A model generated the notes under the pieces. The model was not told the origin of the DNA. It made no database searches and worked only from the letters and a program-made list of their open reading frames with translations. This document shows positions 23,080-42,224 of a stretch of DNA of 64,000 nucleotides, piece after piece. The stretch spans positions 1,116,001 through 1,180,000 of the forward strand of contig NC_015172.1 in the NCBI RefSeq assembly GCF_000190635.1. The letters run 5' to 3'. The stretch's first letter is position 1, and every line of letters begins with the position of its first letter. The position numbers and the translations under genes were made by a program. This stretch comes from Syntrophobotulus glycolicus DSM 8271 (GTDB taxonomy: Bacteria; Bacillota; Desulfitobacteriia; Desulfitobacteriales; Syntrophobotulaceae).

Positions 23080-23210
23080 CTATGAACATTCAAGGTGCGC
23101 TTGTTTACAGGGAAGATGGACGGTAAAGGCAGTCCCCTCACTCGCTTTGCTGTCAACAGATAGCTCACCGTGATGAGCGTCAACAATGGGGATGTTTGCA
23201 AGGATTGTGA
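23080..23210 (-). pseudogene. 3' remnant of a histidine kinase gene
   Basis: On the minus strand the sequence reads VDAHHGELSVDSKASEGTAF followed by TVHLP and a short tail to a stop, the typical end of a histidine kinase ATPase domain (G2-box side). Upstream of it the kinase sequence stops and a plus-strand permease-like sequence begins, so no complete gene exists here. Confidence 0.7.
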
Positions 23211-23224
23211 TGCTGTCCGCATGG

Positions 23225-23499
23225 AGCCATCTCGTGCCCTGGCTGGCGGGTATGGTTTTCATCCCTACACTGGCGCGCTGGTGCTTGGCGATCTCAGCGG
23301 CAGCCGCAGGCCGTTTGAAGCTGTCTTGATCGCCCTGATGTATTTTGGCCCGATCAATGATATGTGGAAGTTTGATTTTATGGGCCTGACAAGCAACAAT
23401 GCCACGGTATATCTGACCGTTGCCGCAATTCTGTTCGGCCTGGGAGCGGGGACACAAAGGGGAAAAGAAAAACGCCTGATTGGCGCAAGGAGGCAGTAG
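23225..23499 (+). pseudogene. 3' remnant of a membrane (ABC-2-like) permease gene
   Basis: The plus-strand frame reads FHPYTGALVLGDLSGSRRPF, then VLIALMYFGPIND, a hydrophobic stretch (about 23400-23450), and a basic tail, like the end of an ABC-type export permease. Its upstream part is replaced by the antisense of the kinase remnant at 23080, so both are leftovers joined at about 23215. The exact permease family is uncertain. Confidence 0.5.
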
Positions 23500-24987: not shown

Positions 24988-26253
24988 TTGAAACGATTAT
25001 TTACAGTTCTATTATTAACCGGCAGTTTGCTCATCTCCGGCTGCAGTAACCCTTTGTTAAATACAGCTTCTGATACCCAGGAGCCACTGGCAGAACCTTC
25101 AGAAAACGAAAGTACTGTGGTTGACACGGATCAATCACCGGCATTTTTAGGCAATAAACCTTTTACCAAAAAAACAACTCCCAAAACTTCCCCCCAAGGC
25201 TATTCTTTGGAAAACATCGCTTATCCCCAATTATCAGATGAGTCTTCCAGCTATGTGACCAAAAGGTTTCCTGATCTGGACGGCTTGTTTAAGGATAACC
25301 AGTGGTCTCCCCTTTGTTTTATCGACAATGACACTTTTGTTTTTTCGGCCGTACAGCTGCAAGGGGCTGAAGAGAAAGTTTATAAGTATAACATGAAATC
25401 GAAGACCCTAAAGGAACTTTTTCAAGTTTCTTGTACAGGGAGGCCCAGTTTCTTCATTCAAAGCAGTACCAGTTTTTATCTCTGTTACGATAACATGGCT
25501 GTTTTGATCGATAACGATAAAGTCTCCAAAAAAATTCTGCTCAGCAGCTTTCAGCAAGAATATAAGGATTTAGACATCCCCCAATTTGCTGTAAACCCTG
25601 AAGCAGGAAAAGTGCTGCTCTTAGATTATGATAAGAAAAGAGGTTATTTAGCCGATCTCAACATGCAGCAAATTACAGAATTACCCGTCCAAGGCGTTGT
25701 CACGGGCGGTTGGCTTGATGCCAAAAACGTTCTCCTGGGAACTGTCGATAAAATTGACGAGCGTCGTCGTTTCGAAGGAAGTGCAGTTGTCAAATATAAC
25801 ATCGAAAGTAAGTCTTCTACGAAAACCTATCTGGGAACCAAGTCGGGAATACCAGCGGTATTTGGAGGTCTTTACCGTAACAGTAATGAATATTGCGGTT
25901 TCAATTATCTTGCTGAAAACATACCACCCTCAGGCCTGGTTGGTATAATTGATCAGATCCATAGCAAAATGATATTCCTTGAGCTTGAGAATGCAGTGGG
26001 CAATTTGACCTTATATCATAACAAGGTAATTACGGTAATTGCCAACAAGCCTGTTGATTGGGAAGTCTGGGGGCGGGCTGAAGATGATCAGGTTTATTTG
26101 GTCGTTTATGACGTAGACACAGAGAACTATAGCATCAGAGCTAAGAATTTGCCAAAGCCTCCAATGTATCTACCGGATTTAATCATATCACCGGACGCAA
26201 GAACAATGATCTATCATGCCGAGGCCATGTCTTATATCAACCGGCCCAAGTAG
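24988..26253 (+). CDS. Lipoprotein of unknown function
   Basis: The 421-residue protein has a lipoprotein signal (hydrophobic LFTVLLLTGSLL and lipobox LISGC, Cys at about 19), then a Ser/Thr/Pro-rich linker and a long extracellular domain with repeated Tyr/Asp-rich strands (for example KVYKYNMKSKTLKELF) that suggests a beta-propeller-like fold. It is anchored on the outer side of the membrane. A GGAGG site precedes the TTG/ATG region. Its last 36 codons are duplicated at 33131-33241. The Bce-type module follows; a functional link is possible but unproven. Confidence 0.75.
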   Translation: MKRLFTVLLLTGSLLISGCSNPLLNTASDTQEPLAEPSENESTVVDTDQSPAFLGNKPFTKKTTPKTSPQGYSLENIAYPQLSDESSSYVTKRFPDLDGLFKDNQWSPLCFIDNDTFVFSAVQLQGAEEKVYKYNMKSKTLKELFQVSCTGRPSFFIQSSTSFYLCYDNMAVLIDNDKVSKKILLSSFQQEYKDLDIPQFAVNPEAGKVLLLDYDKKRGYLADLNMQQITELPVQGVVTGGWLDAKNVLLGTVDKIDERRRFEGSAVVKYNIESKSSTKTYLGTKSGIPAVFGGLYRNSNEYCGFNYLAENIPPSGLVGIIDQIHSKMIFLELENAVGNLTLYHNKVITVIANKPVDWEVWGRAEDDQVYLVVYDVDTENYSIRAKNLPKPPMYLPDLIISPDARTMIYHAEAMSYINRPK

Positions 26254-26382
26254 GAGGAAAACCGTATACCGGGAGTTGCAAAGTTTAGCGGTATGTGGTT
26301 AATACCAAAAGACGCTGAAAAACCTGCTGATGGAAGAAGAAAAGAAAAAAGACGGGGAACCGTTTGAAAGGAGTGTAGCCTT

Positions 26383-27087
26383 ATGGAACATAGAATTATG
26401 CTGATTGAAGACGATACGTCAATCGCAAAGCTGCTTGCCGCCCATATTGAGAAATACGGATATGAATGCGTTATAATAAATAATTTTGATAAGGTATTGG
26501 ATATTTTCATTAAAGCAGACCCGCATGTGGTTTTGCTTGATATTAACCTGCCAAAGTATGACGGGTATTATTGGTGCGGAAAAATCAGGCAGATATCCAA
26601 TCATCCCATCATTTTAATTTCGGCCCGTGACAGTGAGATGGATCAGGTGATGGGGATAGAAAGCGGCGCTGACGATTATATTACAAAGCCTTTTTATTAT
26701 GATGTTGTCATAGCGAAAATAAAGAGCCAAATCCGGCGTTGTTTTGGGGCGCTTGCTCCAGATGGTTCAGAAGAACGGAAAGTAGGATGTGAAGGACTTT
26801 TTCTATACCTCGAAAGGCCGGAACTGCGTTTCCGGGATGCTTCCGTCACCCTGACAAAAAAAGAAGCGGTATTGGCTGAAATTCTAATGAGTAAATCACC
26901 TAAAGCGGTGAGCCGTGATGTGCTGTTGGAAAGACTATGGGATGATGTACACTTCGTAGACGAAAATACCCTGAATGTAAACGTGGCACGTCTTAGAAAA
27001 AAGCTGCAAGAGCTTGGTATTGAAGAAGCGATTGAAACCGTGAGAGGTCAGGGATACCGCTTGAACGCTCTCTGGAGGGAACTGTGA
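26383..27087 (+). CDS. Response regulator, OmpR family (BceR-like)
   Basis: The 234-residue protein has a receiver domain (acidic pair LIEDDTSI, phospho-Asp in VVLLDINLPKYDG, Thr/Ser in LISARDS, Lys in ITKPFYYD) and a C-terminal winged-helix domain (VSRDVLLERLWDD and LNVNVARLRKKL). It overlaps the sensor kinase gene by 4 bases. With the kinase and the ABC genes it forms a Bce-type antimicrobial-peptide sensing and detoxification unit; its expected binding site TTACA-N4-TGTAA is present before the ABC genes at 28075. AAAGGAG precedes the start. Confidence 0.92.
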   Translation: MEHRIMLIEDDTSIAKLLAAHIEKYGYECVIINNFDKVLDIFIKADPHVVLLDINLPKYDGYYWCGKIRQISNHPIILISARDSEMDQVMGIESGADDYITKPFYYDVVIAKIKSQIRRCFGALAPDGSEERKVGCEGLFLYLERPELRFRDASVTLTKKEAVLAEILMSKSPKAVSRDVLLERLWDDVHFVDENTLNVNVARLRKKLQELGIEEAIETVRGQGYRLNALWREL

Positions 27088-28067
27088 TGAGATTATTCTG
27101 GCGTGACCATGTTCCGTTTATATTGTTATACGTTTTCAATATGTTGATTTTATTCGTCATTTATGGAAAGCTCGGCGGATTTGAGAATTTAGGGAACATC
27201 TATTATTTTTTGTTTTTGAGTGGCTTCCTCTTGGGAGTCTTTTTGATATACCGCTTCTTTTCCTATCGAAAGCTATACCACAAATTGAGTGAAATGCCCT
27301 CAAATATAGAGGATACTCTGATTTCGGCAGGAACGGCACCACTTTCAACAGGCATCGATCAATTGATTTTGACCCAATACCATTTATACCAAAGCCAAAT
27401 TGAACGGTACAAGCGCAAGCAAAAGGAGCATTTGGAATTTATCTACCAATGGGCGCATCAAATGAAAACGCCGATTTCCGTCATTCACCTGATTCTTCAA
27501 GAAAATGAGGGTGAGGCTTTTGAAAACATCCGGTTGGAAATGGAGCGGCTCAACAGCGGGCTGAACATGGCGCTCAACTTCGCAAGAATGGAGGAATTTG
27601 AAAAGGATTTTTCCGTTGAAACAATTTTATTGTCCTCTTTTGTGCCGGAGGTAATCAGTGAGGAAAAAAGGTATTTCATCAAAAAACGTATTTATCCCGA
27701 AGTGCGGATAGATTCTGATTTTACGGTAATATCCGATAGGAAGTGGCTCAAACTCATATTAAAGCAATTACTGATCAATGCTGTAAAATACACGGTCGAA
27801 GAGGATAAAACGGTTACCGTGGCGGCTTATCGCCGTGGAAACAGCAAGGTGTTAGAAGTAAGCGATCAGGGCATCGGCATTTCTCCCCAGGATATTCGCC
27901 GTGTCTTTGAGCCTTTTTATACAGGTGTAAATGGGAGGGAGTTCGGAGAATCCACGGGCATGGGGCTATATCTTGTCAATGAAGCCTGCAAGAACTTACA
28001 GCATGAGATTGAGATAGATTCAAAAATATCAGAGGGTACTTCTATCCGGATTGTTTTTTCCGCTTGA
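27084..28067 (+). CDS. Intramembrane-sensing histidine kinase (BceS-like)
   Basis: The 327-residue protein has two closely spaced transmembrane helices at the N-terminus (about 11-30 and 38-58) with almost no extracellular loop. Its H-box reads YQWAHQMKTPISVIH, followed by N, G1 and G2 boxes (LLINAVKYT, VSDQGIGIS, GMGLYLV). Such kinases do not sense ligand directly; they read the state of the partner ABC transporter. The gene overlaps the response regulator gene and lies just before the ABC genes. Confidence 0.92.
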   Translation: MMRLFWRDHVPFILLYVFNMLILFVIYGKLGGFENLGNIYYFLFLSGFLLGVFLIYRFFSYRKLYHKLSEMPSNIEDTLISAGTAPLSTGIDQLILTQYHLYQSQIERYKRKQKEHLEFIYQWAHQMKTPISVIHLILQENEGEAFENIRLEMERLNSGLNMALNFARMEEFEKDFSVETILLSSFVPEVISEEKRYFIKKRIYPEVRIDSDFTVISDRKWLKLILKQLLINAVKYTVEEDKTVTVAAYRRGNSKVLEVSDQGIGISPQDIRRVFEPFYTGVNGREFGESTGMGLYLVNEACKNLQHEIEIDSKISEGTSIRIVFSA

Positions 28068-28074
28068 TGATTTA

Positions 28075-28088
28075 TTACACGGATGTAA
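28075..28088. promoter_or_regulatory. BceR-type operator before the ABC transporter genes
   Basis: TTACA-CGGA-TGTAA matches exactly the TNACA-N4-TGTAA consensus known for BceR-like regulators. A further TGTAA half-site follows at 28095-28099. It lies 93 bases before the proposed ABC ATPase start. Confidence 0.7.
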
Positions 28089-28167
28089 GGTTGATGTAAT
28101 TTGAATCGATAGCAAGCTATACGAAAAGCCGATATGATTGACTTGTAAATTATATCAAGCCAGAAAG

Positions 28168-28929
28168 ATGTGTGTAATATTGGAGCTATTAAACGTAAGT
28201 CATGTTTCCAAAGTATACGGGAATAAGGTGCTGTATAAAGCACTTGACAATGTCAGCCTAAGCATCGAACAGGGAGATTTTGTCGGAATCATGGGGGCTT
28301 CGGGGAGCGGTAAAACAACGCTCTTAAACGCAATTTCCACCATTGACCCTCCCACTTCCGGCGAGGTTCTCATAAACGGAGAAAATCCCTATCAAATCGA
28401 TAGCGCAAATCTTGCGCTTTTCAGAAGAAGAAAAATCGGCTTTGTGTTTCAGGACTTCAATTTGATTGACACTTTGACCGTTGGGGAAAACATCATACTC
28501 CCGTTGACATTGGACGGTGAAAAAGTATCCGTAATGAATAAGAAGCTGAAAGCCGTTGCAAAGAGTCTGGATATTGAAGAAATTCTCGGTAAAAGGAGTT
28601 TTGAAATATCAGGAGGACAAGCACAAAGGTCGGCGGTTGCCCGTGCAATTATCCACTCTCCCTTGCTTCTTTTAGCAGATGAACCTACGGGAAATCTTGA
28701 CTCTAAGTCGGCAAAAGATGTCATGGAATTATTTGAAAGCGTAAACCGTGAAACAGATGTCACAACGGTAATGGTAACGCATGACGCTCAATCTGCAAGT
28801 TTTTGTAACCGCATTGTTTTGATCAAAGACGGACGGATATTCAATGAAATACACCGTGGGAACAGCCGGAAGGAATTTTATCAGCAGATTATTGATGTCC
28901 TCTCCCTATTGGGGGGTGACGCAAAATGA
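28168..28929 (+). CDS. ABC transporter ATP-binding protein (BceA-like)
   Basis: The protein (253 residues from ATG 28168) has Walker A GASGSGKTT, the Q-loop FVFQDFNLID, the signature ISGGQAQRSAVARAI and Walker B LLLADEPTGNLDS. It powers the FtsX-type permease encoded with a 4-base overlap downstream, and belongs to the peptide-detoxifying BceAB group. The start is unsure: ATG 28138 is far upstream, while ATG 28168 and TTG 28180 both fit the family start (LLNVSHVSKVYG); no strong ribosome site decides it. Confidence 0.92.
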   Translation: MCVILELLNVSHVSKVYGNKVLYKALDNVSLSIEQGDFVGIMGASGSGKTTLLNAISTIDPPTSGEVLINGENPYQIDSANLALFRRRKIGFVFQDFNLIDTLTVGENIILPLTLDGEKVSVMNKKLKAVAKSLDIEEILGKRSFEISGGQAQRSAVARAIIHSPLLLLADEPTGNLDSKSAKDVMELFESVNRETDVTTVMVTHDAQSASFCNRIVLIKDGRIFNEIHRGNSRKEFYQQIIDVLSLLGGDAK

Positions 28930-30860
28930 CATTCCGCCAATTTGCATTTAATAATGTAAAGCGCAATATCCGTGTCTATTTGGCCTACTTTTTGAGCAGC
29001 GTTTTTACGATTATCGTTTTTTTCTCCTTTGCGACCAACCTGTTTCATCCTGTCATAGCAAGTCAAAAAGGCGGGGCAATCGAGGAAATAATGGGGCTTG
29101 CCGAGGGAGCTATCTTTGTATTTGCCTTTTTCTTCATTCTGATTTCAGTAAATGCTTTCTTGAAAATCAGGCAGAAAGAATTTGGCGTTCTCACGATTTT
29201 GGGCATGTCAAAAAAGCAGTTTAACCGCATGATTTTTCTGGAAAATATGCTGATTGGCTGCGTCGCCATTCTAACGGGGATTACAATCGGATTGGTGTTC
29301 TCTAAACTTTTGCTGATGGTCACGGCTCATATATTATCATTTGAAGCCCTTTCGTTTTACTTTCCGATTCAGGCCGCACTTCTGACCATTGCTTTTTTCT
29401 TAATCATATTCATCGGTATATCAACGATTGCGCCTAAGATTATACGAACAAATGACGTTGTTCAGTTGTTGAAAGGAGCCCAAAAAGACAATAAGGAAAT
29501 TACATTTTCCAAAACGCTGTCCTTTGTTTCTGTTTTATGTTTATTTCTTGGGTACTTCATGTCCGTATCCTCAAAAATATACGGCTTGCATCCGTTCTTA
29601 AATAAAATCATTTTATTTGTGGAAAACCTGCCGTTCCGCGAGGTTATCCTAATCGCTTTAATTGCGGTCGGCACGTATTTGTTTTTCACACAGTTAAGCA
29701 TCTTTGTATTGCATAGATTAAGGAAAAACAAGAGTTATTATATGCGTAAGACGAATATGCTGTGGATTTCCGAGCTGTTTTCACGCATCAGAGATAATGC
29801 GCGAATGCTGTTTTTGGTTACTATGATTTCAACGGCTGCATATGTCGCTATAACGAGTGTCTATGCCTTAAATTCGGTAGTTAAGGACGAGGCGTTAAAG
29901 GATAATCCCTTTGCGCTTACCTATACTTCTATCGGTGACAATGCAAATGAAGTGCAAAATATCAAAGCGATTGATGATATGCTTACAAGCTCCGGCGTCG
30001 CTTATAAGACCTATAAAACAGAAGTAATCAAGCAGGTTTCGAGTTCGGGATATAGCGTTCATATTATTAGGGTATCGGAGTATAATACCCGTGCGGCCGC
30101 ATTGGGCTTGGCGCAGGTAAGCATTGATGAAAGCCAGGCACTTTTAGTCCCTGCCGATGTACGATACGACCCCGTGAGGGACAAGACCTTAAATCAGAAA
30201 AATATTCCGCTTGACGACGGAAAGATCAATCTGACGGTAAAAGAAGTGGCGCCTCAAGTTATCGTCTATTCAGGGCTGTTTCGGAATCTAATCGCGGTTA
30301 ATGACAGCACCTATGACAAAATATCGGATATGAATGAGAGATATGTTTCTTATTCCTATGAAATACCCGACTGGCTAAACACGCGTAATGCGATGAAGAG
30401 CCTAAGGAGTACCCTTGGCGATGGCGAATACGGCTCATCCTTTTGGTCGAATAGAATAGAAATATATGACCTTGAAAATCAGACAAAGAAGCTGTTTCTA
30501 TATGCGGGATTCTTTCTTGGCGCAATATTCTTCATGGGAGCAAGCAGCTTTCTGTATTTCAGGCTGTATACCGACTTAAATCGGGACAAGAGCAAATATT
30601 TAGCTATATCAAAATTGGGGCTGACCTTTAAGGAATTGAAAAAAGTGGCAAGCAGACAAATTTCCGTTCTGTTTTTCGTACCCTACCTACTTGCCGCCAT
30701 TCATACCTCTTTTGCCACGGCGCTTTTGCAGAGCATGTTATACACCTCGGTATGGCAATACTTTTTAGTGGTCATGGCGGTATTTTTGATACTGGAAGTC
30801 ATTTATTACAGCGTCGTCCGTTCGCGCTATATCAAATATTTAGCGCAGTATACCGTATAG
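28926..30860 (+). CDS. FtsX-type ABC permease (BceB-like)
   Basis: The 644-residue protein has the FtsX/MacB-type layout of BceB: one N-terminal helix, a cluster of helices (about 45-330), a large extracellular domain of about 200 residues (from about 335 to 530), and a C-terminal helix pair. It begins FRQFAFNNVKRN, typical of the family. With the ATPase it removes or inactivates cell-wall-directed peptides and signals to the kinase at 27084. Stop codon is followed by an AT-rich gap before a minus-strand regulator. Confidence 0.9.
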   Translation: MTFRQFAFNNVKRNIRVYLAYFLSSVFTIIVFFSFATNLFHPVIASQKGGAIEEIMGLAEGAIFVFAFFFILISVNAFLKIRQKEFGVLTILGMSKKQFNRMIFLENMLIGCVAILTGITIGLVFSKLLLMVTAHILSFEALSFYFPIQAALLTIAFFLIIFIGISTIAPKIIRTNDVVQLLKGAQKDNKEITFSKTLSFVSVLCLFLGYFMSVSSKIYGLHPFLNKIILFVENLPFREVILIALIAVGTYLFFTQLSIFVLHRLRKNKSYYMRKTNMLWISELFSRIRDNARMLFLVTMISTAAYVAITSVYALNSVVKDEALKDNPFALTYTSIGDNANEVQNIKAIDDMLTSSGVAYKTYKTEVIKQVSSSGYSVHIIRVSEYNTRAAALGLAQVSIDESQALLVPADVRYDPVRDKTLNQKNIPLDDGKINLTVKEVAPQVIVYSGLFRNLIAVNDSTYDKISDMNERYVSYSYEIPDWLNTRNAMKSLRSTLGDGEYGSSFWSNRIEIYDLENQTKKLFLYAGFFLGAIFFMGASSFLYFRLYTDLNRDKSKYLAISKLGLTFKELKKVASRQISVLFFVPYLLAAIHTSFATALLQSMLYTSVWQYFLVVMAVFLILEVIYYSVVRSRYIKYLAQYTV

Positions 30861-30979
30861 CATAAACATTCTTATACTTAGTTAAATTTGAATAGATATA
30901 TCAAAGCGCTATGCATTTTTCTTACTTAGGAAGCTAGAGCGTGGTGCGAATCACTTTTGCCAATCAAAGATCAAGCTTG

Positions 30980-31612
30980 TTATTTCAAAGCGTTCGCAAG
31001 TAAATCAAAACCGAACTCCAAAAACTCTCCCTCATCAATCGACAGTGTGTTCCAGACGCTTTTGTCCATGAAGCCGGCGGTATAAAGGAGGCTGAAGGCA
31101 GAAAAAAAGCCGAAAAATACCGCTTTTTTCATATCCAGGTTGGGATTTATACTGCTGTCCGAAGCGCCGGCAATCGCCAGAGAACCGAGGTATTCCATCC
31201 GGGCGGCATCCAAGTGCCGGATTTCTTGATAATGGGGACTGGCTTCGATGTTTTGCCTGTTTGCCGGGAGGTAATTCAAGATCCGAAACAAATCTGGATA
31301 ATCGCGAAAAAATGTCAGATGGGCAAGATTCGCCAGGCGAATCTTCTCACGTGTGTTTTCACCAAGCCTAAGGGCATTTATAGAGGCTTCATAAAGCTGA
31401 CGGGCACCTTTCAGCGCAACGGCGTAGAAAAGATCCTCCTTGCTCTGAAAATATTGATATAGTGTCCGTTTGGTGAGACCGGCATGTTTGACCACCTCAT
31501 CAATGGAAGTGTTCTCAAAGCCCTTTTCCGCGAACAGCTTTTCAGCCGCCCCCAGAAAGGCTTCTTTTTTTTGAATTTTATTTGCTTCCCGTTTGGATTG
31601 TACTTCTTTCAT
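30980..31612 (-). CDS. TetR family repressor
   Basis: The 210-residue protein has an N-terminal TetR HTH (FAEKGFENTSIDEVVKHAGL then TKRTLYQYFQSKEDLF) and a helical C-terminal ligand-binding domain. It is divergent from a 62-residue membrane protein; two identical operator-like palindromes lie in the 129 bases between them. Local control of the membrane protein gene and of itself is therefore the simplest model. The inducer is unknown. Confidence 0.9.
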   Translation of the reverse strand: MKEVQSKREANKIQKKEAFLGAAEKLFAEKGFENTSIDEVVKHAGLTKRTLYQYFQSKEDLFYAVALKGARQLYEASINALRLGENTREKIRLANLAHLTFFRDYPDLFRILNYLPANRQNIEASPHYQEIRHLDAARMEYLGSLAIAGASDSSINPNLDMKKAVFFGFFSAFSLLYTAGFMDKSVWNTLSIDEGEFLEFGFDLLANALK

Positions 31613-31629
31613 TTTTTAGTCTTCTCCTA

Positions 31630-31689
31630 TTGACAAATAAAGTAGACTGAAGGTATACTTGAATAAAAAAAGTAGACCGCTGGTATACT
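31630..31689. promoter_or_regulatory. Two tandem 19-bp operators over tandem promoters
   Basis: AGTAGAC-N5-GTATACT occurs at 31641-31659 and again at 31671-31689, exactly 30 bases apart (about three helical turns). The first covers the region between TTGACA (31630-31635) and TATACT (31654-31659), spacer 18; the second similarly lies between TTGAAT (31659-31664) and TATACT (31684-31689), spacer 19. Confidence 0.8.
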
Positions 31690-31741
31690 GTTTAAAAAAA
31701 GAATACCATGGGATTAGGAAAATGTAAAGGAGGACTGTAGC

Positions 31742-31930
31742 ATGAGAGGATTTCAATTAATTTTGGCAGTTGTCACGATGCTGATGATGTTCGGCATGTT
31801 TGGTTTTAATCTGTGGATCGACGCTAATTTTTCCAAAGGATTACAACTGCCCCAATGCTATATCCCGTTGAATTATATCACCGCCGGGCTTGTCCTGCTC
31901 ACGGTTATATTGATATTTGTACGTAAATAG
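31742..31930 (+). CDS. Small two-helix membrane protein
   Basis: The 62-residue product has two hydrophobic helices (about 4-24 and 41-59), a short polar loop (WIDANFSKGLQLPQCYIP) and a basic end (FVRK). AAAGGAGG stands 8 bases before the ATG, an excellent ribosome site, so translation is very likely. It is the only gene of its unit, divergent from a TetR repressor and under tandem operators, and so is probably induced by a specific compound. No family recognised. Confidence 0.7.
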   Translation: MRGFQLILAVVTMLMMFGMFGFNLWIDANFSKGLQLPQCYIPLNYITAGLVLLTVILIFVRK

Positions 31931-32007
31931 CGGTAAACAGGAAAATGAAGAGAATGGTTAAGTTCCTGTGCAGGTAAGATCATGAATGGCCAGTACGGTA
32001 ATTGGAC

Positions 32008-32057
32008 AAAAAACGCCGGACCAACGAGTTCCACTATGTTGAGCCGGCATTTTTTTC
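32008..32057 (+). terminator. Terminator between the small membrane protein and HxlR genes
   Basis: AAAAAACGCCGG (32008-32019) pairs with CCGGCATTTTTT (32044-32055), with a loop of about 24 bases and a T-run. Confidence 0.65.
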
Positions 32058-32122
32058 AGGAACCATGGAATCCGGGATACTGGAGCAACGATCAGGAGAG
32101 GTCGGGAAATGGGGGAATGAGA

Positions 32123-32506
32123 ATGAAAATCCGCGAAAACTATACTTGTCCGCTGGAAATTGTACATGATTTTATTAAAGGCAAATGGAAAACAATTTTG
32201 ATCTTTCAACTGAGACTTGGGACACAGACATTTTCAGAATTAAAGCATGGAATTGAAGGCATTTCAGAAAAAATGCTGCTTCAGCAATTAAAAGAGTTAC
32301 AGGAATTTGGAGTGATTAATAAAACAAGTTATGAGGGGTATCCTCTTCACGTAGAATATTTTCTGACGGATAGGGGGACTCAATTATTAGAAGCTGTTCT
32401 GATTATGCAGAATATTGGTGTGGCTTATATGATGGAACATGGACAGAAAGAGCTGCTTGAGAAAAAAGGCATTATCTGTTTGAATTCAATACCTACCGAA
32501 AAGTAA
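32123..32506 (+). CDS. HxlR family transcriptional regulator
   Basis: The protein (127 residues from ATG 32123) is a MarR-like winged helix of the HxlR group: CPLEIVHDFIKGKWKTILIF, the SELKHGIEGISEKMLLQQL recognition region, and the wing with VEYFLTDRG. HxlR proteins often respond to reactive aldehydes or oxidants through a conserved N-terminal cysteine, present here in YTCPLE. The start at 32123 fits GGGGG at 32111-32115; the longer frame from 31982 runs through a terminator hairpin and is rejected. An isochorismatase-family gene follows in the same direction. Confidence 0.9.
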   Translation: MKIRENYTCPLEIVHDFIKGKWKTILIFQLRLGTQTFSELKHGIEGISEKMLLQQLKELQEFGVINKTSYEGYPLHVEYFLTDRGTQLLEAVLIMQNIGVAYMMEHGQKELLEKKGIICLNSIPTEK

Positions 32507-32582
32507 GTAATTTACTTTTTCCTTTATCCGACTTAAACTTTCCTTGAAACGGCAAATAATTAGGGGAAAGAGGTAATGGCCA

Positions 32583-33131
32583 ATGAAACAGGGTTTGATT
32601 TTAGTGGATATTCAAAACGATTATTTTAAAGGCGGAAAATATGAATTGGTTAACCCGGAGCAGGCGGCCATGCAGGCCAATAAAATCCTGACTTTTTTTC
32701 GGAGAGAAGGATGGCCGATATATCATGTGCGCCACATAAGTACAAATCCAGGCGCCGGTTTTTTTATACCGGATACTGAGGGTGCTGATTTTTATAGAGC
32801 GTGTTGTCCTTTGGAAGGGGAAGAAATCATCATCAAGCATAGACCCGACAGTTTCCTGAGGACAACCCTGAAAGAGAAATTGGAAGAAACGGGTGTCGCC
32901 GCATTGGTGGTATGCGGGATGATGACGCATATGTGCATAGATTCAACCGTCAGAACCGCCGGCAATTATGGATACGCTGTCACCCTAATCGAAGACGCAT
33001 GCGCAACAAGAGATTTGGTATGGGGAGGAATCCCGGTTTTAGCGGACCAGGTCCGGAACGCATATATGGCCGCTCTTGACGGGACTTTTGCCAGGGTAGT
33101 GCAGGCCGATGTATGGATTAAGGAGAATTGA
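32583..33131 (+). CDS. Isochorismatase-family cysteine hydrolase
   Basis: The 182-residue protein has the family triad: Asp in LVDIQNDYF, Lys in IIKHRPDSF and Cys in VCGMMTHMCIDST. Members hydrolyse amides or vinyl ethers (for example nicotinamide, N-carbamoyl compounds, isochorismate). The HxlR regulator 76 bases upstream is probably co-transcribed or controls it. An AAGAGGT site lies 12 bases before the ATG. Substrate cannot be told from sequence. Its stop codon coincides with the start of a duplicated lipoprotein fragment. Confidence 0.9.
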   Translation: MKQGLILVDIQNDYFKGGKYELVNPEQAAMQANKILTFFRREGWPIYHVRHISTNPGAGFFIPDTEGADFYRACCPLEGEEIIIKHRPDSFLRTTLKEKLEETGVAALVVCGMMTHMCIDSTVRTAGNYGYAVTLIEDACATRDLVWGGIPVLADQVRNAYMAALDGTFARVVQADVWIKEN

Positions 33132-33241
33132 ATTTGCCAAAGGCCCGAAAGATGTATCCCGCAGATTCAATCATATCACCGGACGCAAGAACAATGATCT
33201 ATCAGGCCGAGGCCATGTGTTATATCAACCGGCCCAAATGA
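33131..33241 (+). pseudogene. Duplicated 3' end of the lipoprotein gene
   Basis: The last 36 codons and stop are homologous to the end of the lipoprotein gene at 24988: ISPDARTMIY is identical, followed by QAEAMCYINRPK against HAEAMSYINRPK. The DNA match includes a 36-base identical stretch (26181-26216 and 33166-33201). The frame is kept but no start or 5' part is present. It begins exactly at the isochorismatase stop codon, which marks a recombination junction. Confidence 0.85.
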
Positions 33242-33274
33242 AGGTCAATCAATTTTCTCCACAAAAAACACAAC

Positions 33275-33302
33275 AAATCGGTCACACGAAATCGGTCACA
33301 CG
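33275..33302. repeat. Tandem 14-bp direct repeat
   Basis: AAATCGGTCACACG occurs twice in direct succession (33275-33288 and 33289-33302) in a non-coding stretch. Nothing else recognisable is seen between 33242 and 33454. Confidence 0.75.
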
Positions 33303-33454
33303 ATGTGGCGGCCTCTCGCGCGATTTGATATAACGGACGGGTGTTACCGGTGCGCCCTAACCGCATTAATGGGGTTATCTAATCAGTATATCCCTATCCC
33401 ACCATTAAAAATTACCATGCGATCCATATATCCGAAAATATTTTTAGATAAATT

Positions 33455-33494
33455 AAAAGCCAATCCCTCAAAATGAACTGGCTTTTGTTTTTTT
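33455..33494. terminator. Terminator-like hairpin
   Basis: AAAAGCCA (33455-33462) and TGGCTTTT (33479-33486) form a stem followed by GTTTTTTT on the plus strand; the arms also give a T-run in the other direction, so it could act both ways. Confidence 0.65.
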
Positions 33495-33566
33495 ATCCAC
33501 ACTATTCTCTTTTGGAATATCAGGGAGAGTTAAAGTGAAAATCGTTCCTTGTTTTCGGGTAACCTT
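33468..33566 (-). pseudogene. Probable 3' remnant of a histidine kinase gene
   Basis: The minus-strand frame ends with VTRKQGTIFTLTLPDIPK and a lysine-rich tail, like the end of a histidine kinase ATPase domain (G-T-x-F-x-x-x-L-P). Nothing upstream in the same frame looks like the rest of a kinase. The stop codon lies inside the hairpin at 33455, which would have served as its terminator. Confidence 0.4.
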
Positions 33567-33715
33567 TTGATTCCATTGTTTTTGATATGCTAATAGAATA
33601 AAATTTTTTTGAAAATGTCTTCTAAAAACCACTTTCCGATATCGCGGTTTCAATACCCACGTGGAACTTATAATCACAATTCTTACATCGAACTCCAAAC
33701 ACGGTACCCATAATG

Positions 33716-34357
33716 CTATACTCCAAACCCGGCGGACGTGGCGTTTTTGGCGTCCCTATTTAGTCGCAGGTTAAGATTATTATACGAGACGTTAAAAAAT
33801 CTTAAGTCTTCGAAACCATTTATGTAACAGGCGGTAAGTTCTGTGACGCAACCGTTAGCCCAATTGTTCGTTTGCTTTTTACCGAGGAAAGTAAGTTCAG
33901 AAGTATCAAACCATGATTCATAAATGCCGCATAAATAATACTGACAGTTACGATATCTATCTTGTTGTATTAAATGTTTGAGTTTCTCTACATCGTAGAA
34001 GCCTGCGTCAATACCGGCTTGTCGCGCGGCTTTATACTTAAATTCAATAATAGCGAGAATATCTTCTTCTTTTATTGCTTCTCCCATATATCCCGTGAAA
34101 TGTTTTGGGACTTTGACAATAGCCATATCCACACAGAAACGACTTTTTTTAATATCGGCGTCATTAAATTCAGTAAAAATCCTTAGGTCGTTCTCATCCA
34201 GAATTTCAGCAAGTGAGGATGACCTTAGATGATGATAAAATGCACTTTTAAGTGAATCTTCTTTCATCAGATATTTCCCTGCATAGTCTTTAGGAATTTC
34301 ATTAAGCCATATGGATTTTATAGCTACATCTATCTGCTTCATTATCTCTTTACCCAT
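33716..34357 (-). CDS. Unknown protein with PD-(D/E)XK nuclease-like core
   Basis: The 213-residue protein is not recognised by name. It contains a possible PD-(D/E)XK-type core: RFCVDMAIVKVP (acidic residue in a hydrophobic strand) followed after about 25 residues by ILAIIEFKYKAA (E-x-K in the next strand), then a helix and a YYLCGIYES strand. This spacing suits restriction-endonuclease-like folds found in defence and repair proteins. It ends in an odd low-similarity tail (RDAKNATSAGFGV), which may be an extension caused by truncation. It stands alone, with AGGAGG before the ATG. Confidence 0.6.
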   Translation of the reverse strand: MGKEIMKQIDVAIKSIWLNEIPKDYAGKYLMKEDSLKSAFYHHLRSSSLAEILDENDLRIFTEFNDADIKKSRFCVDMAIVKVPKHFTGYMGEAIKEEDILAIIEFKYKAARQAGIDAGFYDVEKLKHLIQQDRYRNCQYYLCGIYESWFDTSELTFLGKKQTNNWANGCVTELTACYINGFEDLRFFNVSYNNLNLRLNRDAKNATSAGFGV

Positions 34358-37298: not shown

Positions 37299-37492
37299 GG
37301 TTCCTCATCTCCCAACCAGCGATATGGCTTGAGGGGTATCTGTAATGATGGTAATCGAAAACTGCTCTGAGGTCAAAAAAATTTTGCGCGTAAAGGATTT
37401 CCTTGAATTCTTAACGAATTCTCATCAATATGCAGCTGCAATCATGAACCATTCAAATGTTGCAAATCGTTCTCTTCTATGGAGGCCTGGAC

Positions 37493-38374
37493 ATGAACAA
37501 AACGATCTGTCAAATCGTTGATTCTTCAGGGAGCCTGCCGCGGGATTTGATCAAGGAGTACAACATCAGCGAGGTTCCGTTCTATTTCAAATTCGATAAC
37601 CCTGAGTATTACTGCGAAAATGTTGATTATGGAAGGGCGGATTTTTATCAGCATATGAGGGAATATCCGGAAAAGATTCCTCAGACATCCGCCCCCAATG
37701 TGTATGACTGGCTGAAGGTGTTTGAGCAGCAGTATGCCAGGGGTCTGAGAGAGTTTATTGTGACGACGATTTCCGAAAAATTGTCCGCCAGCTTTCAAAC
37801 GGCTCTCTTAGCCAAGGAAATGTTTGAAAAGGAAAAAGATGATGTGCGCATGGAAGTGATCAGTTCCAATACATGCGCCTGCGGGCAGGCCGCCCTGGAA
37901 ATCGGGATAGCCAAAATGATTGATCATCACAGGGGATTTGGGGAGATCGTCAGAACAATACAAAAGCTGGTCACCAATATCAGCACACTTTTTGTCGTCG
38001 ACAGCTTAACCTATATGAAGGCCGGAGGCCGAATCGGGGGAGCGGCCGCTTTCCTGGGGAAACTGATCAACCTGAAACCAATCTGTGAATTTGTGGATGG
38101 TGCTGTTCGGCCGATTAAAACAGTGCGGGGAAGAAATCATTCCCTGAAAACCATGATAGATATCGCGGTTTCGCGGTTTGTGGATATTAATCAAACCCTG
38201 ATTATTATCCAAAACGCGGACTGCGCGGAAGATGCCGAGGATATGGTCAATTATCTGAGAGAAAAAACCAATGATCCCGGTCAAATATTTCAAAGCGATC
38301 TGGGGATTACGGTAGGGGCACATTCGGGTCCGGGCGCCATCGGGATTGGTTTTGTGGAAAATCCGGTTGTGTAG
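37493..38374 (+). CDS. DegV family fatty acid-binding protein
   Basis: The 293-residue protein has the DegV pattern: an N-terminal VDSSGSLP, the QTSAPNVYDW segment, TISEKLSASFQTA, LTYMKAGGRIGGAAAFLG and the C-terminal HSGPGAIGIGF. DegV (FakB-like) proteins bind a fatty acid for a partner kinase. No FakA partner is seen here. ATG 37493 is preferred to 37457 because GGAGG lies 7 bases before it. A broken second DegV copy follows directly downstream. Confidence 0.92.
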   Translation: MNKTICQIVDSSGSLPRDLIKEYNISEVPFYFKFDNPEYYCENVDYGRADFYQHMREYPEKIPQTSAPNVYDWLKVFEQQYARGLREFIVTTISEKLSASFQTALLAKEMFEKEKDDVRMEVISSNTCACGQAALEIGIAKMIDHHRGFGEIVRTIQKLVTNISTLFVVDSLTYMKAGGRIGGAAAFLGKLINLKPICEFVDGAVRPIKTVRGRNHSLKTMIDIAVSRFVDINQTLIIIQNADCAEDAEDMVNYLREKTNDPGQIFQSDLGITVGAHSGPGAIGIGFVENPVV

Positions 38375-38404: not shown

Positions 38405-38756
38405 ATGGGCAGAATTATTCTGAGCGCCGACAGTACTTGTGATTTGGATGAACGGTTACAAGAACGTTATGGGATTCATTCCTCTGCACATCATTTTAGG
38501 GGAGAAGAAATACCGGGGCAAGCTGGATTCGGTTTTTAAGCAATATACGAAGGATAAGCTCAGTGACCGTCCGGATCTTAAATTGGACAGGGTCTTTATC
38601 GTGCACTCGGGGGTATCCGCCGGCGATATCGGCTTGGTGCGGGAGGCAATCAGCGGATACGCCGACTTTAAAGAAATTCTGGTTGCCCGGGCCGGCTGTA
38701 CAATTTCTTCCCATTGCGGACCGAATACCCTCGGAGTGATGTTTATGACTGAATAG
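38405..38756 (+). pseudogene. Broken second DegV gene
   Basis: The frame from ATG 38405 encodes a DegV start (GRIILSADSTCDLDERLQER) and is then shifted: the continuation IPLHIILGEKKYRGKL is in the +1 frame. From there it jumps to the DegV end (LDRVFIVHSGVSAGDIGLVR and CTISSHCGPNTLGVMFM). About 170 central codons are missing. GGAG precedes the start, so it was once an expressed gene next to the intact degV. Confidence 0.85.
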
Positions 38757-40311: not shown

Positions 40312-41613
40312 ATGCTGATAAAGTATGTATTTCAAAACTTCCGTTCCTTCAAGGGGAAGACCCAATTGGAGATGAGAGCAGGAGCACAGCGAACTTTGGA
40401 TGAAAATCTTATCCGAGAAAACGGACTGCGTATTCTTCCCTCTGCCGTTATATATGGTGCAAACGCCAGCGGAAAGTCCAATATAATGATGTCTCTGGCG
40501 CTGATGAGGGAGATCGTCTTACAAGGTTCTCTGGAGGCTTCATCTTCGGATCTGAACAATCTTGAATTATACCCGTTTGCCCATGATTCGGAACAAAATC
40601 CCATGTTGTTTGAAGTGGAGTTTACAAATGAAGGTTCTCATTTTTTATATTCCTTTGAAGTCATGACCAAGCAGTTTGACAAGGAAAAACGCCAGATTAT
40701 ATCGGAACAGCTATGGATAAACAGCAATAAGGGAATGATTCGGATTTTTGAACGGGACCGGCAGCGAGTTGAGATCAAACGGGATAAGAAGGTTCTTTCC
40801 CTTATCCAGTATGATGAAAAGCTTCTGGGGGAATTTGAAAACAAAATCAATAAAAACCTTGACCCGTCTGAGCTATTTTTAACACATGCGTTTAAGACGG
40901 TTGTCAGCAGCGAAATTGCCGATAAAGTAATTGATTTTTTTAAAAACAAGCTGATCGTAGTGAGTGATTTTACTCTGAAGAAAACGAATCTTACATTTTC
41001 TGCGGCCGAAATGCCGGATAAGGATTTTCTCGCGTGGAACAAAACGCTTGACGGTTTTGTAAAAAACGCGGATTTCGGCCCTCAGAGAATCCTATTCAAA
41101 TCCCAAAAATCGGAGGATGAGCATTCTGCCGATATGCAGCTTGTCTCGATCTACAAGTCCAGTAAGCGGGATATGATGGTTTCTGCGGAATTGATGGAAT
41201 CGAGAGGGACCTTGAAGCTTCTGGATTTTGCGATTCCCTTTGAAACCTTTTTCGCCAAGGGAGGCGTTTTTGTACTGGACGAATTTGATGCGGCAATTCA
41301 TCCCGAATTGATTAAAGGCATCATAGCTCTGTTCAATGATCAGGCGGTGAATAAAAAAGGGGCGCAGCTTATCTTTACTACCCATAACCCGATTTATCTG
41401 AGCAACAAGATATTCCGGCGTGATCAAATCAAATTTGTCGAAAGGGATAAGGACACCTTTGAAAGCACCATTTATTCACTTGCCGATTTCGGTTCCACGG
41501 ATGTTAGGAATGACCAAAACTATCTGTTAAACTATTTTAAAGGAAAATATGGTACACTTCCGTATATTGATTTTTCCAAACTTTTCACCGGAGAAGCAGA
41601 GGAGGAAGGATAA
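40312..41613 (+). CDS. AAA ATPase of the RloA/AbiLi type (phage defence)
   Basis: The 433-residue protein starts with the AAA_15/RloA-like pattern MLIKYVFQNFRSFKGKTQLE, has Walker A GANASGKSN, a long middle region, and the ABC-like Walker B GVFVLDEFDAAIHPEL with IIFTTHNP-type sensor sequence (LIFTTHNPIYLSN). It is cytoplasmic and would use ATP to control the RloB effector encoded one base downstream (TAATG overlap). Pairs of this kind occur in AbiL and related abortive-infection systems. A GGAG site precedes the ATG. Confidence 0.88.
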   Translation: MLIKYVFQNFRSFKGKTQLEMRAGAQRTLDENLIRENGLRILPSAVIYGANASGKSNIMMSLALMREIVLQGSLEASSSDLNNLELYPFAHDSEQNPMLFEVEFTNEGSHFLYSFEVMTKQFDKEKRQIISEQLWINSNKGMIRIFERDRQRVEIKRDKKVLSLIQYDEKLLGEFENKINKNLDPSELFLTHAFKTVVSSEIADKVIDFFKNKLIVVSDFTLKKTNLTFSAAEMPDKDFLAWNKTLDGFVKNADFGPQRILFKSQKSEDEHSADMQLVSIYKSSKRDMMVSAELMESRGTLKLLDFAIPFETFFAKGGVFVLDEFDAAIHPELIKGIIALFNDQAVNKKGAQLIFTTHNPIYLSNKIFRRDQIKFVERDKDTFESTIYSLADFGSTDVRNDQNYLLNYFKGKYGTLPYIDFSKLFTGEAEEEG

Positions 41614-42224
41614 TGTATCGTAAAACTTACTTCTGCGTTTGTGAAGGGCAACAGGAAGAAATGTATTTAAAGCGTGTGGCATTTCTTTTGAAAAAATTCC
41701 CCGAACGTGTTGTGACGTTCAACACAGCCTGCGGTTTACCCGAAAAGTTGAAAAAGAATTACACGGAGTATGATAATGCCGCTCTGTTCGATTATGATTT
41801 CAAGGACACGGAGTTTCGTCATAACATAAATATTTGTGAACAGCTTCAGCGAAAAAGCCGGAGAAAAAACGGGAAAAATGTTTATCACGCATACAGCAAT
41901 GCAAACATAGATTTGTGGTTTATTCTTCATAAGGAGGATTTCAACAGGCCGGTTGCCGCAAATGATGCTTATATAGCTGATGTACGAAGAATCTATGGAT
42001 TTAATCAAGAAGCTGACATAAAAGAAAAGACTAATCTTGAAAGGATACTGAAGCAAATCACCCTTGAGGATGTAAGAAATGCAATCAGACGTGCAGATCA
42101 AATCCGGGCTGGAAAATTAGAATCGGACTGCTTTATGGTAAGTACTGTCACCTGCTATGGCAATCCGGACTTCTCTCTTCATGAGTTTTTGAAGATTGTC
42201 TTAAGGGATTGTGGCGAATTGTAG
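41613..42224 (+). CDS. RloB-domain (TOPRIM-like) protein, AbiLii type
   Basis: The 203-residue protein matches the RloB family: an N-terminal CEGQQEEMY acidic motif, an acidic DYDFKD segment that may give the DxD metal site, and the conserved SNANIDLWFILHKEDF block. These look like a TOPRIM-type nuclease core. Its start codon overlaps the RloA stop, so both are made together. Expected role: toxic effector, set free when infection is sensed by the ATPase. The cellular target is not known. Confidence 0.87.
   Translation: MYRKTYFCVCEGQQEEMYLKRVAFLLKKFPERVVTFNTACGLPEKLKKNYTEYDNAALFDYDFKDTEFRHNINICEQLQRKSRRKNGKNVYHAYSNANIDLWFILHKEDFNRPVAANDAYIADVRRIYGFNQEADIKEKTNLERILKQITLEDVRNAIRRADQIRAGKLESDCFMVSTVTCYGNPDFSLHEFLKIVLRDCGEL

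Follow-up and report, generated by a model that had tools for sequence, protein, structure and literature searches.

A probable decayed lipoprotein gene tail behind a 7-kb gene block in Syntrophobotulus glycolicus

Introduction

The chromosome of Syntrophobotulus glycolicus carries a lipoprotein gene whose 3′ end occurs twice in the same orientation, on either side of a block of about 7 kb. Gene 3′ ends repeated directly on both sides of a block are a layout typical of integrating elements, and the locus raises the question of how the second copy came to stand where it does. A preliminary description of the region had offered three possibilities, namely that the block was inserted next to the lipoprotein gene, that it arose by duplication of this gene, or that a second lipoprotein gene was mostly deleted. 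We analysed the surrounding 64,000 nucleotides, hereafter the window (positions 1116001-1180000 of the single 3,406,739-bp contig), and all coordinates without a locus label refer to it.

Extent of the direct repeat

A repeat search and a gapped alignment matched the end of the lipoprotein gene (Table 1) to positions 33130-33237 with 88% overall identity, the copies differing at 11 positions and by one codon, an extra AAG after codon 6 of the match in the second copy. The core of the repeat (26164-26249 and 33152-33237) is 92% identical over 86 nt, and a separate 20-nt piece (26145-26164 and 33130-33149) is 85% identical in nearly the same register, its spacing of 6985 differing from that of the 86-nt piece (6988) by the inserted codon. 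Uninterrupted identity extends over at most 36 nt, starting at 26181 and 33169, respectively. These results confirmed the recurrence of the gene end about 7 kb downstream, with a 36-nt identity and one inserted codon, as the preliminary description had it. Its placing of the second copy directly at the isochorismatase stop codon is off by no more than two bases, since the match starts at 33130 and includes the GA of the TGA stop (33129-33131), and the genes that it named between the copies agree with the open reading frames and their Pfam matches.

When 161 bp around the first copy were searched against the whole genome, only these two places were found, and the E value of the second (1.3e-32) excludes chance; a 661-bp search from the side of the second copy returned the same two copies only. 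The similarity between the copies stops at the lipoprotein stop codon, and the 3′ flank of the second copy (33242-33760) occurs once in the genome.

Table 1. Predicted genes and repeat copies at the lipoprotein locus (window coordinates)
Feature	Coordinates	Strand	Basis
Intact lipoprotein gene, 421 aa, SGC lipobox, Cys19	24988..26253	+	
First repeat copy, last 35 lipoprotein-gene codons	26145..26249	+	Repeat search, genome search, alignment
Response regulator, Bce-like module	26383..27087	+	Pfam; 74% identical homologue in G007
Sensor histidine kinase, Bce-like module	27084..28067	+	HATPase_c; 68% in G007
ABC transporter ATPase, BceA-like	28138..28929	+	Pfam; 74% in G007
FtsX-type permease, BceB-like	28926..30860	+	Pfam; 65% in G007
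TetR-family regulator	30980..31612	-	Pfam
62-aa hydrophobic (putative membrane) protein	31742..31930	+	ORF; no Pfam match
HxlR-family regulator	31982..32506	+	Pfam
Isochorismatase-family hydrolase	32583..33131	+	Pfam; C-terminus at about homologue length, intact
Second repeat copy, probable 5′-truncated 3′-end relic, 36 codons + stop	33130..33241	+	

State of the second copy

The second copy matches only residues 386-421 of the 421 residues of the lipoprotein and lacks about the first 385 codons. As judged from its sequence, the segment 33130-33241 is very probably (probability about 0.85) a non-functional relic of a lipoprotein-gene 3′ end. Among the 35 aligned codons, 8 are changed relative to the first copy, 7 nonsynonymously and 1 synonymously, while a neutral simulation (20,000 trials, of which the 12,266 without stop codons were retained) gave a mean of 2.1 synonymously changed codons and a probability of 0.37 for one or fewer. 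The codon changes fit neutral drift, although such small numbers would also allow weak selection. Furthermore, the hydrophobic residue before IxSPD is L, M or V in all five full-length proteins and Ser in the relic.

The changes are uneven along the repeat: the first 36 nt (12 codons) carry 8 of them and the remaining 69 nt carry 3 (Fisher p = 0.007). This suggests that the tails come from different alleles, or that they were partially homogenised, or it may simply reflect a variable loop at that place; residues in this part are missing from all four homologues compared. The protein itself is predicted to be all-beta and propeller-like by a low-confidence model, built from two sequences, with a mean pLDDT of 52. 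Its best fold matches include many propellers at TM scores of 0.25-0.41 by query length, which gives only a hint of a propeller fold, and a sequence search of the PDB with the lipoprotein returned no match.

The second copy might also be read as a working short gene, in which a TTG codon (33134-33136) starts a 35-aa peptide, the frame is open through to its own stop, and AAGGAG (33120-33125), 8 nt before the TTG, resembles a ribosome-binding site at the usual spacing; nearly all of the changes are nonsynonymous, however, a codon has been inserted, and the remaining piece is the mere end of a predicted all-beta protein, so that we consider this very improbable. The duplication of an RNA element was rejected as well, as an Rfam search of the window gave no match and neither copy folds better than its shuffles (z = 1.96 and -0.04).

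Gene content of the block

By Pfam, the first four genes of the block encode, side by side, a response regulator, a kinase, an ABC ATPase and an FtsX-type permease, with the HisKA domain of the kinase just under the cut-off and HATPase_c above it, and we take this set to be a Bce-like module with a putative role in sensing and resistance. It shares the gene order of Bce-type modules and differs from them in the unrelated regulator pairs that follow. Among the 73 genomes of the order, permease homologues outside the genome of the window (E <= 1e-40) comprised two proteins at 27-32% and a close one at 65%, in genome G007, a member of the bacterial family. There the four-gene set lies in the same order within a 17-kb stretch in which neither the lipoprotein gene nor any other gene of the block occurs. 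Of 397 other genomes in a phylum sample, 5 contain isochorismatase homologues of 46-53% identity (E <= 1e-45), and in the 3.5-kb loci around all five none of the remaining block or flank proteins was found. Since the block genes do not occur together either in G007 or at the isochorismatase loci, a patchwork is a likelier reading of the block than a conserved element, and its three unrelated gene groups may have arrived separately.

We also tested the right junction for a truncated isochorismatase. One homologue (at locus L053) ends at the same place as the window protein, and the others end within a few residues of it; the isochorismatase is thus complete, and truncation at the junction is ruled out.

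The lipoprotein family and a locus of similar layout

The searches indicate that the lipoprotein family is rare. Within the 25 genomes of the bacterial family, close full-length members occur in the genome of the window (three), in G002 (one) and in G008 (one), with an extra distant full-length paralogue at 1245 kb in the genome of the window and distant matches only in G009 and G015. In a class-wide search (82 genomes, E <= 1e-8), 7 genomes had any match; G009, G015, G076 and G077 gave distant ones, and the close full-length members were those of the same three genomes. Plasmid searches with DNA and protein queries gave no match, and a scan of genome contigs for close relatives returned a single locus, the already known G008 contig. 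The neighbours of the lipoprotein gene in G002 and G008 are other than those in the window.

A layout similar to that of the window is present in G002, where an intact lipoprotein gene (L011:4293-5474) is followed about 5 kb downstream, on the same strand, by a C-terminal relic in an 88-codon frame (L011:10467-10733). The cargo between them encodes a small protein of secreted type, a permease resembling DUF1430, though with a match below the Pfam threshold, and an ABC ATPase. The similarity between the two G002 copies, interrupted by gaps, extends beyond the stop codon into the c-di-GMP-I riboswitch that each copy carries there, and their tails differ by 22 synonymous and 18 nonsynonymous changes in 80 codons, a pattern that points to two alleles diverged at least partly as genes. 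A downstream relic thus accompanies two of the five close full-length genes (window and G002, the others being that of G008, whose contig ends soon after the gene, and two in the genome of the window). A search for further C-terminal relics in 7 genomes (E <= 1) gave no clear one, with three weak matches at E 0.15-0.3.

As to gene neighbourhoods, family members in two other genomes (L011:4293-10868 and L004:1369-2687) have c-di-GMP-I riboswitches downstream and an M23 peptidase-like gene upstream, the latter assigned by Pfam at L011 only. In the genome of the window near 1246.8 kb, a C-terminal piece of an aldo/keto reductase gene (L010:2651-3145), covering profile positions 172-284 of 291, adjoins the distant lipoprotein paralogue.

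Origin of the second copy

The window combines an intact homologue upstream, other genes between, and a tail in the same orientation, the layout of an orphan 3′ tail. Our preferred explanation, to which we give slightly less than an even chance, is that the tail was left by foreign DNA recombining into an ancestral lipoprotein gene through homology-facilitated illegitimate recombination. The incoming DNA would have matched the lipoprotein gene on the left side, and an illegitimate event would have joined its right side to the old gene within the terminal portion of the latter. A complete lipoprotein gene would thereby have been rebuilt on the left, the Bce, TetR and HxlR/isochorismatase genes, or some of them, would have come in as cargo, and the old 3′ end would have been pushed downstream as an orphan and then decayed.

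Such recombination has been measured in E. coli, where it was rare (PMC3240628); one homologous and one illegitimate junction of this kind would yield the window layout, whereas here we infer the process from one genome. Sequential displacement leaving orphan 3′ ends has been proposed for Vibrio T6SS arrays, and Rhs loci and T6SS immunity arrays likewise have an intact gene, new cargo and a same-orientation 3′ tail downstream (PMC5361080). In contrast to those arrays, the window has one small decayed tail and no array, and no effector-immunity genes were seen. Literature searches for fragment displacement with lipoproteins gave nothing of use, and one for Dehalobacter restrictus with lactococcin found none.

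Several features argue for displacement: the direct orientation and the repeat of the 3′ end only, the mostly nonsynonymous changes, the Ser before IxSPD and the uneven divergence of the relic, the right junction at an intact isochorismatase gene, the single-copy 3′ flank of the relic, the same layout with other cargo in G002, and the Bce module without the rest of the block in G007. Composition fails to mark the block as foreign, which counts against displacement, as do the three unrelated gene groups of the block, the rarity of the process in experiments and the chance that the uneven divergence reflects only a variable loop. No empty site or donor for the block was found in the 25 family genomes, the 82 class genomes or the contig scan, which yielded no close relative either with or without the block, and in none of the genomes searched does the tail form part of an intact gene at this position.

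The tail may instead be what is left of a tandem paralogue, if genes were gained between two nearby lipoprotein genes and the second then lost its 5′ part by deletion; we hold this to be a serious possibility, with the odds against it. The genome has three further full-length members, one of them distant, so that the family does multiply, and the similarity past the stop codon into the riboswitch in G002 is as a tandem segment duplication would give. In the window, however, the similarity ends at the stop codon, so no duplicated flank is seen, and this history requires a duplication plus an insertion or deletion. With no duplicated flank, the window taken alone would slightly favour displacement over a paralogue remnant, and the G002 locus is compatible with both. 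The data do not tell the two histories apart, and the tail is most likely a trace of ordinary gene gain or loss in a region of patchwork character. The earlier proposals therefore stand in so far as the truncated relic fits a displaced tail or a remnant paralogue; there is no sign that the block moves or excises.

Site-specific integration at the gene 3′ end, with the tails as attachment sites of a 7-kb element, would account for the direct repeat around the block, but a Pfam search found no recombinase among all 8 predicted block proteins (the 62-aa protein being without a match), the copies are too diverged for near-identical attachment repeats, and the genes of the block do not stay together in relatives, so this reading is scarcely credible. 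When a gene end recurs directly on both sides of a block, the layout can thus mimic an inserted element; here a decayed gene tail would explain it.

If the G002 locus reflects the same process as preferred for the window, namely displacement of an old 3′ end, such tails would mark sites of gene-set gain in the family. It is conceivable, although unlikely, that Peptococcaceae have repeatedly gained genes with the 3′ half of this little-known, propeller-like lipoprotein gene as the anchor, gene sets with ABC transporters being spliced in behind it and one orphan tail being left per event. This would resemble the Rhs and T6SS arrays, with the lipoprotein as the constant part.

Low-GC surroundings and other gene ends

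The genome report gives 46.4% GC and 119 pseudogenes for the chromosome of S. glycolicus FlGlyR (PMC3156405). Between about 24 and 46 kb, the GC content of the window ranges over 0.38-0.46, except for 0.495 near 44 kb, and in most of the rest it is 0.50-0.60. Since the lipoprotein gene, the block and the right flank, at a similar 0.37-0.47 per gene, lie in one low-GC stretch, composition cannot single out the block, and we discarded it as an uninformative mark of insertion.

Further likely gene-end relics lie in the same stretch, so that a relic is not unusual here. Just behind an intact DegV gene (37457-38374), positions 38439-38756 (+) likely hold a DegV C-terminal relic, which covers positions 221-279 of 280 of the Pfam profile, just under the cut-off. 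At the left edge of the stretch, positions 23080-23457 (-) gave a weak match to a histidine-kinase ATPase C-terminus (E = 0.01, under the cut-off) and are possibly another gene-end relic. Finally, positions 40312-42224 (+) encode an AAA_21 ATPase followed by an RloB-like protein, which together resemble a phage-defence pair.
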